This document shows, piece after piece, positions 25,537 through 31,798 of a stretch of DNA of 64,000 nt. The notes under the pieces are model-generated. The model worked only from the letters and a program-made list of their open reading frames with translations. It did no database searches and was not told the origin of the DNA. Source of the stretch: an uncultured Pelagibacteraceae bacterium. Its GTDB lineage: Bacteria > Pseudomonadota > Alphaproteobacteria > Pelagibacterales > Pelagibacteraceae. Location: positions 1 through 64,000 of the forward strand of contig CACKZH010000003.1 in NCBI GenBank assembly GCA_902604575.1, written 5' to 3'. The position numbers and the translations under genes are program-made. How positions within the stretch are numbered: the stretch's first letter is position 1; every line of letters begins with the position of its first letter.

Positions 25537-26220
25537 ATGATTTTTAGGCAAGTATTCGATAATAAATCGTCGACATACACTTATTTAATTGCATCGGCAA
25601 AAGGTCGCGAGGCAGTCATAATTGATCCAGTAATTGAGAATGTTGAAAGCTACATTAAGTTACTTCAAGAATTAGATTTAAAACTAGTTAAGGTAATAGA
25701 TACTCATATTCATGCTGATCATGTAACTGGTGCAAGTAAACTAAAGCAGGTAACAAATTGCTCTACACTTATGGGAGAACACACACCTGCTGATGCTGTT
25801 GAAATTAAAGTAAAAGATGATGAAATAATAAAAATTGACCAAATAGAAATCAAAGCGATGTATACACCTGGTCATACCTCTGACAGTTATAGTTTCTTAA
25901 TGAAGAACTATTTATTTTCAGGAGATACTCTTTTAATTAATGGCACCGGTAGAACAGATTTTCAAAACGGAAGTTCAAAAGATGCTTATAATTCAATCTT
26001 TAATAGATTGTTAAAATTACCTGAGAACACCATTTTATATCCTGGTCATGATTATAACGGCAAAGAATCTAGTACAATTGGTAATGAAAAAAAATTTAAC
26101 CCAAGATTGCAGGTTAAAAATGTTGATGAATATGTTGAGCTTATGTCAAATCTTAATTTAGCAAAACCACAATTAATAGATATCAATGTAAGTAGAAATA
26201 TTAAGTTAGGTGCTAACTAA
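25537..26220 (+). CDS. ETHE1-like persulfide dioxygenase (MBL fold)
   Basis: This 227-residue metallo-beta-lactamase-fold protein has the iron-site motif THIHADHVTG (about 56), TPGHTSDSY (about 109), SGDTLLINGTGRTDFQNG (about 127) and YPGHDYNG (about 168). GTGRTDFQNG and the His/Asp set are characteristic of ETHE1/Blh sulfur dioxygenases, which oxidise glutathione persulfide to sulfite. It would detoxify sulfide arising from organosulfur use. No rhodanese domain is fused. The 3' end overlaps the convergent azlD by 8 bases. Confidence 0.85.
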   Translation: MIFRQVFDNKSSTYTYLIASAKGREAVIIDPVIENVESYIKLLQELDLKLVKVIDTHIHADHVTGASKLKQVTNCSTLMGEHTPADAVEIKVKDDEIIKIDQIEIKAMYTPGHTSDSYSFLMKNYLFSGDTLLINGTGRTDFQNGSSKDAYNSIFNRLLKLPENTILYPGHDYNGKESSTIGNEKKFNPRLQVKNVDEYVELMSNLNLAKPQLIDINVSRNIKLGAN

Positions 26221-26530
26221 AGACAAAAAATATTAAAAACCAATAAGAAACTAATCCAGCTGAAATTGTTGCAATAATATTTTTTGAAAAATAACCTACA
26301 ATTACAGCAACTAATGCTCCAAATATTTTGGGATCATTCATTTCTATAAAAGTTCCAAAATCATTTATAAATATTCCTGGAAATATTATTGCTGGGAATA
26401 CTGCAGAAGGAACATATTCCAACACTGCTTTAATTTTATCTCCTAGCATATCTCTACTTATTAAAGCGATCATAGTCATTCTAGTAAAGTAAGTTAATAT
26501 TCCAGCAAAAATTATTGCAGTAAGGGTCAT
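26213..26530 (-). CDS. azlD: AzlD branched-chain amino-acid exporter small subunit
   Basis: This 105-residue protein has four hydrophobic segments and the AzlD layout: an N-terminal helix, a short TRMTMIALISR loop, then EYVPSAVFPAIIFPGIF and AVIVGYFSKNIIATISAGLVSYW. It pairs with AzlC, encoded directly upstream with a 4-base ATGA overlap. The AzlCD family exports branched-chain amino acids or their analogues. Nothing in the sequence shows how it is regulated. Confidence 0.87.
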   Translation of the reverse strand: MTLTAIIFAGILTYFTRMTMIALISRDMLGDKIKAVLEYVPSAVFPAIIFPGIFINDFGTFIEMNDPKIFGALVAVIVGYFSKNIIATISAGLVSYWFLIFFVFS

Positions 26531-27213
26531 TTTTTTAACCTCAACAATAGTGCAGCTACAAATAAAGCAATTATTGGTGAAATAATTATGTAAGATTTAA
26601 ATGGAGCATCAAAAAATAACAGTGAACTTAAACCACAAGTAATCATTACAATTACATGATCTAATTTTTTTAAATCCTGAACAACAATTGCTATAAACGT
26701 TAGAGGAATTGCAAATTTTAATCCAAGTTCCTCTGGAACAAATGATCCTAACACAATGCCTGATAATGTTGCTATCTGCCAACAAACCCACATTGTACAA
26801 CCTGTGCCAATTAAATGATAATGTAAAAATTCTTCACTTCTATTTTTTTTGAAAAACTTATTAGACTCTGCAAAGCCTTGATCTACAACAACATAAGAAA
26901 TTAATAATTTTTTTATAAAAGATAATTTTTCTAAATATTCAGATAAAACAGCTCCATATAATAGATGTCTAGAATTTATAATTCCAACAGATGCAACGGC
27001 AACTAAACTAGATGCACCTCCTGATAACAACTGCAAAAATACTATCTGTGAAGCTCCGCCAAAAATTATGAAAGACATTGCATAGACCAAATATGGGTGG
27101 AATCCAAGTTCAACACCGATTGCTCCACAAATTATTCCAAATGGAATTACTGAAAGCATATGTGGAGAAATATCTAACATCCCTCGAGTGAATAATTGTT
27201 TTTTAGTAAGCAT
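26527..27213 (-). CDS. azlC: AzlC branched-chain amino-acid permease large subunit
   Basis: This 228-residue membrane protein shows the AzlC signatures: IPFGIICGAIGVELG near the N-terminus, MSFIIFGGASQIVFLQLLSGGAS (about 46) and NSRHLLYGAVLSEYL (about 82). It forms a two-component exporter with AzlD. It lies 12 bases downstream of the iron-transport ATPase gene on the same strand, so it could be at the tail of the iron operon by read-through, although a functional link to iron is not evident. Confidence 0.9.
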   Translation of the reverse strand: MLTKKQLFTRGMLDISPHMLSVIPFGIICGAIGVELGFHPYLVYAMSFIIFGGASQIVFLQLLSGGASSLVAVASVGIINSRHLLYGAVLSEYLEKLSFIKKLLISYVVVDQGFAESNKFFKKNRSEEFLHYHLIGTGCTMWVCWQIATLSGIVLGSFVPEELGLKFAIPLTFIAIVVQDLKKLDHVIVMITCGLSSLLFFDAPFKSYIIISPIIALFVAALLLRLKK

Positions 27214-27225
27214 TTGCTTGTTTTA

Positions 27226-28287
27226 TTAAAAACAAACTATGTGATCAATATGAATCGGTCTTTTAATTCCAAACTTTTCGTCAGCTTCATGTTGATGTTC
27301 ATGATGAGAATGAACAAATACTGGTATTAATAAATCGCTACTAGTTTTTAAGGTATAAATAAAGTTGGTTCCTCTAAATTTTCTATCAACTACCTCTAAT
27401 TTTAGATTGCTTTTATCATCGTGCTCAAGATCCTCTGGCTGTAATAATAATTGTACATTTGATCCTTTTGGATAATGCTTTATAAAATTCCCATTAATTG
27501 TTCCAAGATCTTTATTTTCTAATGAATTTTCTCCAGTTACTTTTGCTGGAATTAAAATTCCACGATTTAAAAAATTTACTACTTCGACGGAGTTTGGAAA
27601 ATGATAGACATTATAAGGATCGTCAAACTGTTTTATTTGACCATCTAATATAATTGCGCATTTATGACCTAAATAAAAAGCTTCGTATGAGTCATGAGTT
27701 ACGATTATTGTTGTAATCTTTAATTTGTTTAATATTTTTTTTAATCTTACTTGAATTTCTTCTTTAAAACTTTGATCGACATTCGATAACGGTTCATCTA
27801 ACAACAAAAGATCAGGTTGTGTAAGTAAAGATCTTGCAAGAGAGGCTCTTTGTGCTTCTCCAGCGCTTATTTCATGCGGATATTTTTTAAGTATTTTTGA
27901 AATATCAAGTAAATCAACGATCTCTTTAAAAGTTAGTTTTTTTGTCTTTTTTGTTTTATTTCTCTCAGCGCCTAACAATATATTCTTTTCAACTGTGTAA
28001 TGAGGAAATAAGCTATTATCTTGAAAAGCTAAAGATACATTTCTATCTTCAGGCTCAACATGTTTATCTTTAGAAGATATTAATTTTCCATTTAATTTAA
28101 TTAAACCCTTCTCAACATTCTCCAAGCCAGCAATTGTTCTTAAGATTGTTGTTTTTCCAATTCCTGAAGGACCTAAAATACACAAAGTTTCTCCTTCATT
28201 TTCAATTGTAAATGAAGCGTTTTTAACTTTGGTTTTTCCACCAATTGTGAAATCAACACCTGTAATCTCAAAAAAATTATTTTTCAT
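27226..28287 (-). CDS. fbpC: Fe(III) ABC transporter ATP-binding protein (FbpC-like)
   Basis: This 353-residue ATPase has Walker A GPSGIGKTT (about 38), a degenerate signature EISAGEAQRASLAR, Walker B LLLLDEPLSN and the switch His in IIVTHDSYEAF, followed by a C-terminal TOBE-like regulatory domain. The Cys/His-rich tail (HSHHEHQHEADEKF) is unusual and may bind metal. The start overlaps the permease by 4 bases. It energises iron uptake with the FbpA/FbpB proteins of the same unit. Although the family includes spermidine and molybdate systems, the FbpA partner makes iron most likely. Confidence 0.88.
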   Translation of the reverse strand: MKNNFFEITGVDFTIGGKTKVKNASFTIENEGETLCILGPSGIGKTTILRTIAGLENVEKGLIKLNGKLISSKDKHVEPEDRNVSLAFQDNSLFPHYTVEKNILLGAERNKTKKTKKLTFKEIVDLLDISKILKKYPHEISAGEAQRASLARSLLTQPDLLLLDEPLSNVDQSFKEEIQVRLKKILNKLKITTIIVTHDSYEAFYLGHKCAIILDGQIKQFDDPYNVYHFPNSVEVVNFLNRGILIPAKVTGENSLENKDLGTINGNFIKHYPKGSNVQLLLQPEDLEHDDKSNLKLEVVDRKFRGTNFIYTLKTSSDLLIPVFVHSHHEHQHEADEKFGIKRPIHIDHIVCF

Positions 28288-29903
28288 TTTTCTCTTAGAA
28301 TATATTTAGATGTAAACATAATAAATATAGTTGCAATTAAAATTAAAAACAATGATGGAACTGCTGCAGCTTCTAACAAATCTTCAGATGCAGATATATA
28401 AGCTGTTGTTGCAAAAGTTTCAAAATTAAATGGTCTTAAAATAAGGGTTATTGGTAACTCTCTTATTATTTCTAAAGAAATCAATATAGCTACAAATAAA
28501 AGAGAATTTCTTAAAAAAGGAACGTGAATATTCATAAAGGTTTTCTTTTTAGAGTAACCAAGTAGATAAGAACTTTCATCAACTGAAATATTTATTTTTT
28601 CATAGCCTGACTTAATTCCATTAAATGCTAATGAATAAAATCTTACAAAATAAACTAAAACAAGACCAAAAACAGAACCAATAAAGATTTTTTTAATAGA
28701 CAAAAATCCTAGTGTTTTAACAATGTTATCATCAAACCAAGCAATAAAAGTAATAAATGCTACAGCTAAAATAACACCTGGTATAGCATAACCTGATATG
28801 GATATAGTTGATAAAAAATTTAAAATCTTGTTTCTAGAAACTCTATTTCCATAATTTGAAATTAAAGAAAAAAAAATCAAGACTATGCTAGACAAAATCA
28901 CCAAATAAATTGTATTTAAAGTAAGTGAAATCACATCAATATCAAAAAGATTTTCTGGAAATTTAATTGTCCAATATAACATTTGGCTTAAAGGAAATAA
29001 AAAACTTAAAAAGAAAATAATAAAACAAAACAAAAATGCAAAAAAAGATTTTTTTCCAGTCAGTGTAATTTTTTCTTTTTGTTTAAATCCACCTCTTGAA
29101 TTAAAATGGTATTTAGCTTTTTTTCTAGAAAAATTCTCAATTATAAAACATGCAAATATAAATATTAGTAAGAAAAAGGACAATCTATTTGAAAAAGCCA
29201 AGTCATCAAATGTAATCCATGAATTATAAATTCCAGTGGTTAAGGTGTTTATTGAAAAAAAATCAACTGCACCAAATTCTGCTAATGTTTCCATCGCAAC
29301 AAGAGATAATCCAGCGACTATAGCTGGCCTAGCAGCTGGTAATATCAATGAATATAAAGACTTAAATTTTGAAAAACCTAAACTTCTTCCTAAATCAATT
29401 AAGTTTTGAGATTGATATAAAAATGATGCTCTAGAGAGAATATATACATAAGCGTATAATGAAAATGAAAGCGAAAGTACTGCTCCAAGAAGACCATCAA
29501 ATTTTGGAATATGTTTATTGTATTCCCCTTCTCCAAATAAATTTGTCAAGATTGTAAAGGCTGTCCCATAATTTTCAAAAAAGGCTGTTAAAGAATATGC
29601 ATAAATATACGGAGGAACAGCGAAAGAAAGTATAAGGCCCCATCTAAAGAAATCACTTAAAGGAAATTTGTAAAAAGAAACCAAGTATGCAGAAGCAGTA
29701 CCTACTATAAATGTTAAGATTAAGACAGAGAATAGTAGTGTGAAAGAATTAAAAATATATTCAAATAAAAAAGTATCTTTTAATACTTGGTAATAATTTG
29801 AGGTCTCTTCAAAAAAACTAAAAAAAACTGTAACGATTGGAATTAATACGCCTATAGACACCAATAAAGAGGATAGAAACCAGATATTTAAATTCTTTAA
29901 CAT
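28284..29903 (-). CDS. fbpB: Fe(III) ABC transporter permease, fused double-domain (FbpB-like)
   Basis: This 539-residue protein has about twelve membrane helices and two BPD-transporter permease repeats. Each has an EAA-type loop: LGRSLGFSKFKSLYSLILPAARPAI (about 168) and SSYLLGYSKKKTFMNIHVPFLRN (about 443). Two-repeat permeases are typical of FbpB/SfuB ferric systems. It lies 40 bases after the peroxiredoxin gene and overlaps fbpC. The short upstream gap contains an A7T7-like stretch but no convincing hairpin terminator. Confidence 0.9.
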   Translation of the reverse strand: MLKNLNIWFLSSLLVSIGVLIPIVTVFFSFFEETSNYYQVLKDTFLFEYIFNSFTLLFSVLILTFIVGTASAYLVSFYKFPLSDFFRWGLILSFAVPPYIYAYSLTAFFENYGTAFTILTNLFGEGEYNKHIPKFDGLLGAVLSLSFSLYAYVYILSRASFLYQSQNLIDLGRSLGFSKFKSLYSLILPAARPAIVAGLSLVAMETLAEFGAVDFFSINTLTTGIYNSWITFDDLAFSNRLSFFLLIFIFACFIIENFSRKKAKYHFNSRGGFKQKEKITLTGKKSFFAFLFCFIIFFLSFLFPLSQMLYWTIKFPENLFDIDVISLTLNTIYLVILSSIVLIFFSLISNYGNRVSRNKILNFLSTISISGYAIPGVILAVAFITFIAWFDDNIVKTLGFLSIKKIFIGSVFGLVLVYFVRFYSLAFNGIKSGYEKINISVDESSYLLGYSKKKTFMNIHVPFLRNSLLFVAILISLEIIRELPITLILRPFNFETFATTAYISASEDLLEAAAVPSLFLILIATIFIMFTSKYILREK

Positions 29904-29943: not shown

Positions 29944-30489
29944 TTACTTTGATGCAGAAAGGTATTTTAGTGTATTTTCTGGTGTTGTTTCTATATACGG
30001 GTCATCATCTGAGCCTGAATTATTAATTCCAGGCTCTTGCCACCATTTTTCAACAATACCGTCATTAATAACTGCCATATATCTCCAACTTCTTTGGCCA
30101 AATCCATCATGGTCTTTGGAGATTAACATTCCCATATATTTTGTAAAAAGTCCTGATCCATCTGGTATTACTTTAACATTAGAAATACCCATTTTTTTTG
30201 CCCAAGCATTCATAACGTATGAGTCATTTACTGAACAACAATAAATTTCGTCAATGCCAAGTTTTTTTAATTCATCAGCATTTTTTTCAAATCCAGGTAA
30301 TTGTTGAGAGGAGCATGTTGGTGTAAATGCACCAGGTAAACTAAATAAAATTACTTTTTTATTTTTAAAAAAATCATCAGTGGATTTATTTGTCCACTTC
30401 CCACCAATTGCACATGCAATTTCATTATCCGAAGTATCACCTTCTCTAATTCTAAAAGTTACTTGAGGTATTTTAAATCCTTCAATCAT
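29944..30489 (-). CDS. peroxiredoxin (Prx5 type)
   Basis: This 181-residue peroxiredoxin has the peroxidatic Cys in PGAFTPTCSSQQLPGFE (Cys59) and a late RSWRYMAVINDG strand, as in AhpE/Prx5-like enzymes. It reduces peroxides using glutathione/glutaredoxin or thioredoxin. It is encoded inside the ferric ABC operon, between the binding protein and permease genes, so peroxide defence appears tied to iron import, a sensible way to limit Fenton chemistry. A two-level hairpin lies 11 bases upstream of its start, and no Shine-Dalgarno is visible. Confidence 0.9.
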   Translation of the reverse strand: MIEGFKIPQVTFRIREGDTSDNEIACAIGGKWTNKSTDDFFKNKKVILFSLPGAFTPTCSSQQLPGFEKNADELKKLGIDEIYCCSVNDSYVMNAWAKKMGISNVKVIPDGSGLFTKYMGMLISKDHDGFGQRSWRYMAVINDGIVEKWWQEPGINNSGSDDDPYIETTPENTLKYLSASK

Positions 30490-30500
30490 ATTTTTTTAAT

Positions 30501-30554
30501 GCCCACGACAATTTTTAGGAAAGGGTAAAGATCCTAAAGGAGAGTGACGTGGGC
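30501..30554 (-). promoter_or_regulatory. two-level stem-loop in the 5' leader of the peroxiredoxin gene
   Basis: Read on the transcribed strand, GCCCACG pairs perfectly with CGTGGGC (7 bp, 30548-30554 with 30501-30507). Inside it TTTAGGA pairs perfectly with TCCTAAA (7 bp), leaving asymmetric internal loops of 9 and 6 bases and an 11-base apical loop. The element ends 11 bases before the prx ATG and lacks a U-run, so it is not an ordinary terminator. Two perfect coaxial stems joined by conserved-size loops are compatible with a cis-regulatory or mRNA-processing RNA. Confidence 0.6.
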
Positions 30555-30577
30555 ACCGTCTAAAAAGAAATATATCA

Positions 30578-30763
30578 TCATTTAAAAGGAGTGAGGATGT
30601 CTAGAGCCTCGTCTTTTTGAATCTCAGATAATTTTCTATTATTTATTTTTCTTTTAATCTTTTCACACTCTGATGAGCATGGTTCACATGTTATCTGACC
30701 CTCAAGTGAACCGCTCATGACAGAAGAATTACTTAAATCAAAATTAAATAAATTCTTTTTCAC
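30578..30763 (-). CDS. small Cys-containing protein in the iron operon (61 aa)
   Basis: I do not recognise this 61-residue protein. It is soluble and charged, with three Cys clustered as CEPCSSEC around residues 26-33, and a helical C-terminal half (CEKIKRKINNRKLSEIQKDEALDIL). The cluster could bind iron, zinc or another thiophilic metal. It starts 6 bases after the ferric-binding protein stop and precedes the peroxiredoxin leader, so it is very probably iron-regulated with them. An iron-handling or sensing role is inference. Confidence 0.65.
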   Translation of the reverse strand: MKKNLFNFDLSNSSVMSGSLEGQITCEPCSSECEKIKRKINNRKLSEIQKDEALDILTPFK

Positions 30764-30769
30764 TATGTA

Positions 30770-31798
30770 TTACTTCCAACCAGCAGCTGTCATAACTTCT
30801 AATGCAGCAGCTTGATTTTTTCCATAAGTTGAAACTTTGGTTGCTAAATCTTGTTTAAAATCTAACCCTAAATTATTCACAACTAGTGGACTTGGAGAAA
30901 CACCATCAATCATTGGAAACTCAAACGTATTATTCGTAAAGTGTTCCTGAGACTCTGGTGATAATAAAAAGTCAACAAGTGCAATCGCGTTTGCTTTATT
31001 AGGTGCACCTTTAACTAAAGCAGCACAACTAATATTCATGTGTGTTCCTCTACCTTGCTGGTTAGGGAAAAACGCTTTAACTTTTTTTGCAGCTGCTTGT
31101 TGTTCAGCACCTTTTTTACCTGAAAGCATAAGTGCTAAATAATAAGTGTTAGCTACTGCAATATCAGCTTCGCCAGCTGCTACTGCCATAATTTGAGCTC
31201 TATCGTTTCCTTTAGAGTCTCTAGCCATGTTAGCAACAACACCTTTTGCCCATTCAGCTGTAGCTTTTTTTCCATTATTTGCAATTAATGAAGCTACAAG
31301 AGATTTGTTATAAATATTGCTAGATTTTCTTATTACCAATCTACCTTTCCATTTTGGATCAGCTAAACCTTCATAAGTCATACCTGATAACTCAGCTCCA
31401 CTAACTCTCTCTGGTGAGTAATAAATAATTCTTGCTCTTTTTGCTACTCCAACCCACTTATTAGTTCTAAAGTTTTTTGGAACAGAAGCTTTGATTGTTG
31501 CAGATGATAATCCACCCTGAAGCAAACCTTTAGCATCCATTGCGCCACATCTTCCAGCATCCGCAGTAATATAAAGATCGGCTGAAGAATCTGCTCCTTC
31601 TTCAGCTATTCTTTTTTCTAATGCTCCTGATTTTCCATTAATTAAATTTACTTTAATTCCTGTAGCTGCTGTAAATTTTCCATACATTTCAGCATCAGCC
31701 TTATAATGCCTTGCATTAAATACATTTACTTCATTCGCTATCGCAAAAGTTGATACAAATAAAGATGTAATTAACGCTAAAATTGATAATTTTCTCAT
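30770..31798 (-). CDS. fbpA: Fe(III) ABC transporter substrate-binding protein (FbpA-like)
   Basis: This 342-residue periplasmic protein has a signal peptide (ILALITSLFVSTFAIA, cleavage after AIA). The adjacent tyrosines in ANTYYLALML (about 211) match the Tyr-Tyr iron-ligand pair of FbpA/FutA proteins, and NVFNARHYKADAEMY at the mature N-terminus provides the usual HY motif. A TAAGGAG site precedes the start. Two tandem Fur-like palindromes lie 34-64 bases upstream. It captures ferric iron for the FbpBC permease encoded downstream. Confidence 0.93.
   Translation of the reverse strand: MRKLSILALITSLFVSTFAIANEVNVFNARHYKADAEMYGKFTAATGIKVNLINGKSGALEKRIAEEGADSSADLYITADAGRCGAMDAKGLLQGGLSSATIKASVPKNFRTNKWVGVAKRARIIYYSPERVSGAELSGMTYEGLADPKWKGRLVIRKSSNIYNKSLVASLIANNGKKATAEWAKGVVANMARDSKGNDRAQIMAVAAGEADIAVANTYYLALMLSGKKGAEQQAAAKKVKAFFPNQQGRGTHMNISCAALVKGAPNKANAIALVDFLLSPESQEHFTNNTFEFPMIDGVSPSPLVVNNLGLDFKQDLATKVSTYGKNQAAALEVMTAAGWK

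Follow-up and report, generated by a model that had tools for sequence, protein, structure and literature searches.

The gap between two genes at positions 30490-30577 of the window, a stretch of 64,000 nucleotides from an uncultured Pelagibacteraceae bacterium, holds a real two-level RNA hairpin on its minus strand. The hairpin is a copy of potC RNA, an RNA known since 2010 without a function. SAR11 bacteria have a hairpin between most of their ABC binding-protein genes and the gene that follows, which is usually a permease gene, and this one is the example from an iron operon. Judged from sequence comparison, it probably serves as a 3'-end hairpin of the fbpA transcript, holding the ferric-binding protein above the peroxiredoxin and the permease. 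The element itself is not new, given its full-length match to Rfam family RF01751. What is added here is a wider positional family, the finding that it goes with the upstream gene, and its repeated occurrence downstream of other binding-protein genes.

The operon is read from the minus strand in the order fbpA, small ORF, prx, fbpB, fbpC, and azlCD. Its first gene (30770-31798) encodes an FbpA/FutA/SfuC-like ferric-iron-binding periplasmic protein. The best PDB matches of this protein are ferric-binding proteins (FutA/FbpA, best E 4e-88), which bears out the ferric ABC setting proposed in the original prediction. Directly upstream of the RNA is a conserved small ORF of 61 codons (30578-30763) with a GTG start, a C-x-x-C...C motif, and the terminal residues ILTPFK. 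Unannotated homologues of about 50-61 codons are found in most SAR11 fbpA loci, with the motifs C-x-P-C-x-x-E-C and K-I-N-x-R-K-L-S-E-I and a conserved C-terminal end. The window ORF has no Pfam or NCBIfam match, and its product is possibly an iron- or thiol-related small protein. Downstream of the RNA are a Prx5-like peroxiredoxin gene, prx (29944-30489; Pfam Redoxin, 2.6e-24; PDB HI0572 and Prx5), the ferric ABC permease gene fbpB (28284-29903; BPD_transp_1), and the ABC ATPase gene fbpC (27226-28287; ABC_tran, 4.7e-31). Close behind fbpC, at 26213-27213 on the same strand, are azlC and azlD, which are of the branched-chain amino-acid exporter type; azlC is also iron-responsive in P. ubique (PMC2864753).

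The gap extends exactly from the stop of the 61-codon ORF to the prx ATG at 30489, and the hairpin forms on the transcribed strand. The outer stem, P1, pairs TGCCCACG (30555-30548) with CGTGGGCA (30507-30500) through eight perfect Watson-Crick pairs, to which two G-U pairs are added. Its 5' arm is thus GGTGCCCACG at 30548-30557, seen by direct reading and covariation, and its 3' arm is CGTGGGCATT at 30498-30507, seen by direct reading, covariation, and folding against shuffles. The inner stem, P2, joins TTTAGGA (30532-30538) to TCCTAAA (30514-30520) in seven perfect pairs, and its variants in relatives still pair (CTAGGA/TCCTAG, ATTAGATG/CATCTAAT, AGGTA/TACCT). At the top is the apical loop TCTTTACCCTT, read as UCUUUACCCUU (30521-30531), with the core TTTACCC at 30523-30529. 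The internal loops are asymmetric, at 9 nt and 6 nt, as had been described in advance, and no Shine-Dalgarno sequence is visible in the window ahead of the prx start, also as described. The perfect 7-bp inner stem of that description stands, whereas the 7-bp outer stem was drawn slightly short; likewise, the hairpin does end near the prx start, but at a spacing of 8-10 nt instead of 11. Folding of 30485-30590 on the minus strand gives a z of -3.55, with as stable a fold in 0 of 200 shuffles. This value, the covariation in relatives, and a cmscan E-value of 2.6e-19 for the whole window indicate that the hairpin is more than chance and, with the direct reading, confirm the two-level stem-loop.

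The match to potC RNA (RF01751) spans 30493-30562 on the minus strand, covers model positions 1-70 of 70, and scores 93.8 bits against a gathering threshold of 44. It is the sole Rfam match at the gathering threshold in the 64-kb window. Weinberg et al. (2010) listed potC as a probable RNA and probable cis-regulator of unknown riboswitch status, from marine sources only (PMC2864571), and Rfam classes it as cis-regulatory (RF01751). A literature search found no functional study of potC RNA. Among 397 genomes of the order, Rfam matches occur in 28, one per genome and all but one in the window's genus, and 27 of the 28 matches lie in the gap between fbpA and prx or fbpB. The other one, a weak, sub-threshold match (L028), is antisense to coding sequence and was rejected as a potC copy. 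A model of the outer stem and loop (R1) gives strong matches at the fbp gap only, where checked; six weak matches examined at other genomic sites (L226-L228, L231-L233) fall inside ORFs and are taken as chance. Like potC RNA as described, the window copy is marine, with its closest relatives in Pelagibacteraceae/Ca. Pelagibacter, and adjoins transporter and peroxiredoxin genes, prx and then fbpB following it. Unlike the earlier description, the present one gives the full operon context, behind fbpA and the small ORF, and the evidence suggests that the hairpin serves the upstream gene. The name potC misleads, because the transporter here is ferric.

Covariation was measured in 23 varied sequences that had been picked for the UUACCC loop, so loop invariance in that alignment is not counted, while the stem is unbiased. 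In the outer stem, 100% of cells are standard pairs, compensatory changes are seen at seven of nine pairs, and covariation scores 0.513, compared with 0.192 +/- 0.025 for shuffles and at most 0.132 for slid partners. For the wider survey, gaps downstream of fbpA were taken from 144 distinct SAR11 loci, of which 119 gaps follow the small ORF and have a length of at least 40 nt. A stem of score at least 17 is present in 117 of the 119, and a score of 20 is reached by 96% of gaps compared with 4.7% of dinucleotide shuffles. The arms vary by clade yet pair (GUGCCC/GGGCAC, GUGUCC/GGACAC, GUGCUC/GAGCAC, GUGAAC/GUUCAC, GUACUC/GGGUAC), and the apical part differs in kind among loci, being a UUUACCC loop, a GGGG tetraloop, UCUCCUU, or tandem hairpins. 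Since both arms and apical classes differ at one site, potC RNA is one sequence class of a wider hairpin set. Covariation among SAR11 gaps, which the original prediction had named as its check, is found, and absence from close relatives, which it had named as contrary evidence, is not seen (33 of 34 have the hairpin).

Within these loci, the hairpin keeps its place relative to the gene before it. The stem lies at a nearly constant distance from the upstream stop (median 14 nt, sd 5.2), whereas its distance to the next start scatters widely (median 32, sd 51). The hairpin adjoins the small ORF whether or not prx follows; prx is next in 38 of the 144 fbpA loci, and fbpB is directly next in most others. 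No stem of score at least 20 is found in the 35 prx-fbpB gaps. In some deep lineages without the small ORF, such as L151, L152, and L155, the hairpin is directly behind fbpA, and others have gaps of just 5-41 nt with no hairpin. On an FbpB tree, which is a quick FastTree with many weak branches and is meant only for contrasting numbers of changes, parsimony gives about 11 changes for prx coming and going between the hairpin and fbpB, about 30 for the apical class, and about eight for hairpin presence. The tight upstream spacing, the place kept with or without prx, and the cases in which the hairpin follows fbpA directly all argue that the element goes with the upstream gene.

The same arrangement extends beyond iron. 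The survey of other binding-protein genes (Pfam SBP_bac_8 and SBP_bac_3) covered 46 in nine genomes, and in 45 cases the next gene is codirectional; representative next genes were judged to be permeases by eye and not by a profile search. A stem of score at least 20 is found in 39 of these 45 gaps, and in 11 of 13 ortholog groups formed at 45% identity, the latter figure being safer because orthologs are not independent. The background, drawn from one complete relative genome sampled in ten 20-kb stretches, has a hairpin in 8 of 142 codirectional pairs, or in 8 of 35 when gaps of 40-300 nt are considered. Binding-protein gaps differ from this background by a rank test on gap-matched sets (p = 3.5e-9) and by Fisher's test (p = 7e-26). 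Four loci of one genome (G003; L219, L221, L223, L225) and their orthologs have strong hairpins, many with a U-tract, behind polyamine, sugar/glycerol-phosphate-type, and amino-acid binding-protein genes. Hairpins with a U-tract include those behind potD and a 346-aa SBP_bac_3 gene.

These results bear on what the original prediction had offered as a cis-regulatory RNA or a processing site. A structured, covarying RNA is there, and the suggestion that it sets prx and permease apart from fbpA is the best-supported reading. A role mainly as a prx leader is not supported: the hairpin holds its place relative to the upstream gene, most loci lack prx, and hairpins are again found in this position behind binding-protein genes of unrelated kinds.

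The proposed role in the window would work as follows. Downstream processing or partial termination would leave the hairpin at the 3' end of an mRNA carrying fbpA and the small ORF, and the hairpin would shield that mRNA from 3' exonucleases. The cell would then make an excess of the iron-binding periplasmic protein relative to Prx, FbpB, and FbpC. For the window copy, the A-rich tail, which lacks a U-tract, favors a stabilizer or processing barrier over a terminator; the stabilization is what we infer. With such a role, potC RNA, carried without a function in lists since 2010, would gain a simple and testable job. The arrangement suggests how one of the most abundant ocean bacteria, which has few regulators, may keep binding proteins in large excess over pumps. 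It also serves as a warning that lineage-limited RNA families found ahead of transporter genes may belong, as 3' elements, to the gene before them.

In enterobacteria, REP/BIME hairpins between binding-protein and permease genes, such as malE-malF and hisJ-hisQ, protect the upstream mRNA. The SAR11 hairpins are likewise intercistronic and behind binding-protein genes. However, REPs are dispersed repeats, whereas the SAR11 hairpins are single-copy and have their own sequence in each binding-protein group.

In Clostridia, stem-loops behind binding-protein genes raise upstream over downstream transcripts (Wu et al. 2022, PMC9045158). Where a U-tract follows the stem, the route there is partial termination; folding energy bears on stability, and the same stem-loop arrangement was predicted for E. 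coli (PMC9045158). The pattern in SAR11 is consistent with this known type of device. The stem-loops of Ruminiclostridium lie between binding-protein and translocator genes in most such operons (PMC9045158), and the window also has a stable hairpin between a binding-protein gene and codirectional translocator genes. In contrast to the clostridial case, the window copy lacks a U-tract and carries a conserved apical loop, and the SAR11 role is a proposed one. A Clostridia stem-loop that lacked its U-tract gave no termination (PMC9045158), which together with the A-rich tail makes the termination route unlikely here.

Expression in Ca. P. ubique is in line with an excess of binding protein. Under iron limitation, mRNA induction is 16x for sfuC (periplasmic protein), 10.4x for sfuB (permease), 5.0x for sfuA (ATPase), and 2.1x for azlC, and only the binding protein is clearly up in both mRNA and protein (PMC2864753). 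This gradient, which consists of inductions and not levels, agrees with the model and does not test it.

One feature counts against the preferred reading, namely that the almost unchanging UUUACCC loop shows far more conservation than a plain barrier would call for. Close relatives (FbpA at least 93.5% identical), picked regardless of loop, supply 33 hairpins, in which the UUUACCC core differs in 0.9% of pairwise comparisons, against 26% at fbpA fourfold sites. Other unpaired loop bases differ in about 10% and internal loops in 10-17%. A core nearly invariant in the window's clade could be a recognition site that controls the operon by pairing with the next gene's start region or with an RNA or protein in trans. 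In several deep lineages, the loop's UUACCC is exactly complementary to a GGGUAA at the fbpB start, which lies before the start codon in L027, L098, L144, L159, and L170 and over it in L150 and L152; L230 is a further loop/GGGUAA case. However, the counted match is small (seven of nine exact) and the loci are related. GGGUAA is not found near the prx or fbpB start in the window's clade, nor anywhere in the 3-4 kb locus around the window copy, and the GGGG or UCUCC loops of other clades do not follow the same start sequence. As a general mechanism, a pseudoknot between the loop and a Shine-Dalgarno sequence was rejected, as it fits about nine loci but accounts for neither the window's class nor the GGGG-loop class. 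Recognition by the loop is unlikely overall, and this holds too for its more specific form, in which UUUACCC would be a module for ancestral pairing with the fbpB start, kept in the window's clade for a trans partner (RNA or protein). If it were true, a stoichiometry hairpin would have been turned into an iron- or stress-responsive switch.

At two loci from another genus of the family (L151, L155), the hairpin is AATTTAGTCCCTGG/CCGGGGACTAAATT with a CCTCCT or CTCC loop. This hairpin lies directly before AAGGAGGAG or AGGAGGAG and the TTG start of fbpB, its loop possibly being an anti-Shine-Dalgarno loop facing its Shine-Dalgarno sequence.

The loop core can also be viewed as that of a riboswitch or leader that senses a metabolite or iron and masks the start region to govern prx or fbpB translation, in keeping with the Rfam class and the 2010 listing as a probable cis-regulator. 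The outer stem is 8 nt before a prx start without a Shine-Dalgarno sequence, and the stem ends 7-9 nt before the prx start in many prx-bearing loci, so there may be an effect on translation. However, the next start is at very different distances among loci, and the gene that follows may be prx or fbpB. The apical core conserved in the window's clade is replaced in other clades, the apical part turning over far more often than the hairpin on the FbpB tree, and the internal loops vary far more than the core. The same position is also used behind unrelated transporters. A prx leader or riboswitch is accordingly less supported than a site separating fbpA from prx and the permease, and we regard it as quite improbable.

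Least probable is a partial intrinsic terminator between the binding-protein gene and the downstream genes: internal terminators of this sort have been shown in Clostridia (PMC9045158), and a U-tract follows 23 of the 39 other binding-protein hairpins and 27 of 117 at the fbp site, but it follows only 3 of 57 in the UUACCC class, and the window tail, UUAAAAAAAUAUG, is A-rich. A terminator scan lists no site at 30490-30577, where the 3' side reads TTAAAAAAATATG, and an intrinsic terminator, which calls for a GC stem and a U-tract, was rejected for the window copy because no U-tract follows the stem. The hairpin had been said not to have a terminator shape, and this description holds.

A second, tandem hairpin occurs in the gap between fbpA and prx or fbpB at seven loci (L064, L066, L072, L073, L171, L176, L181). 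It has a long conserved stem, which reads TTCTGTTCAAAGAGTGTTC / GAACACTCTTTGAACAGAA in several of them, with a AAGTTGTCTCCTTAATTAT-like inner part, and it is common to loci with and without prx.
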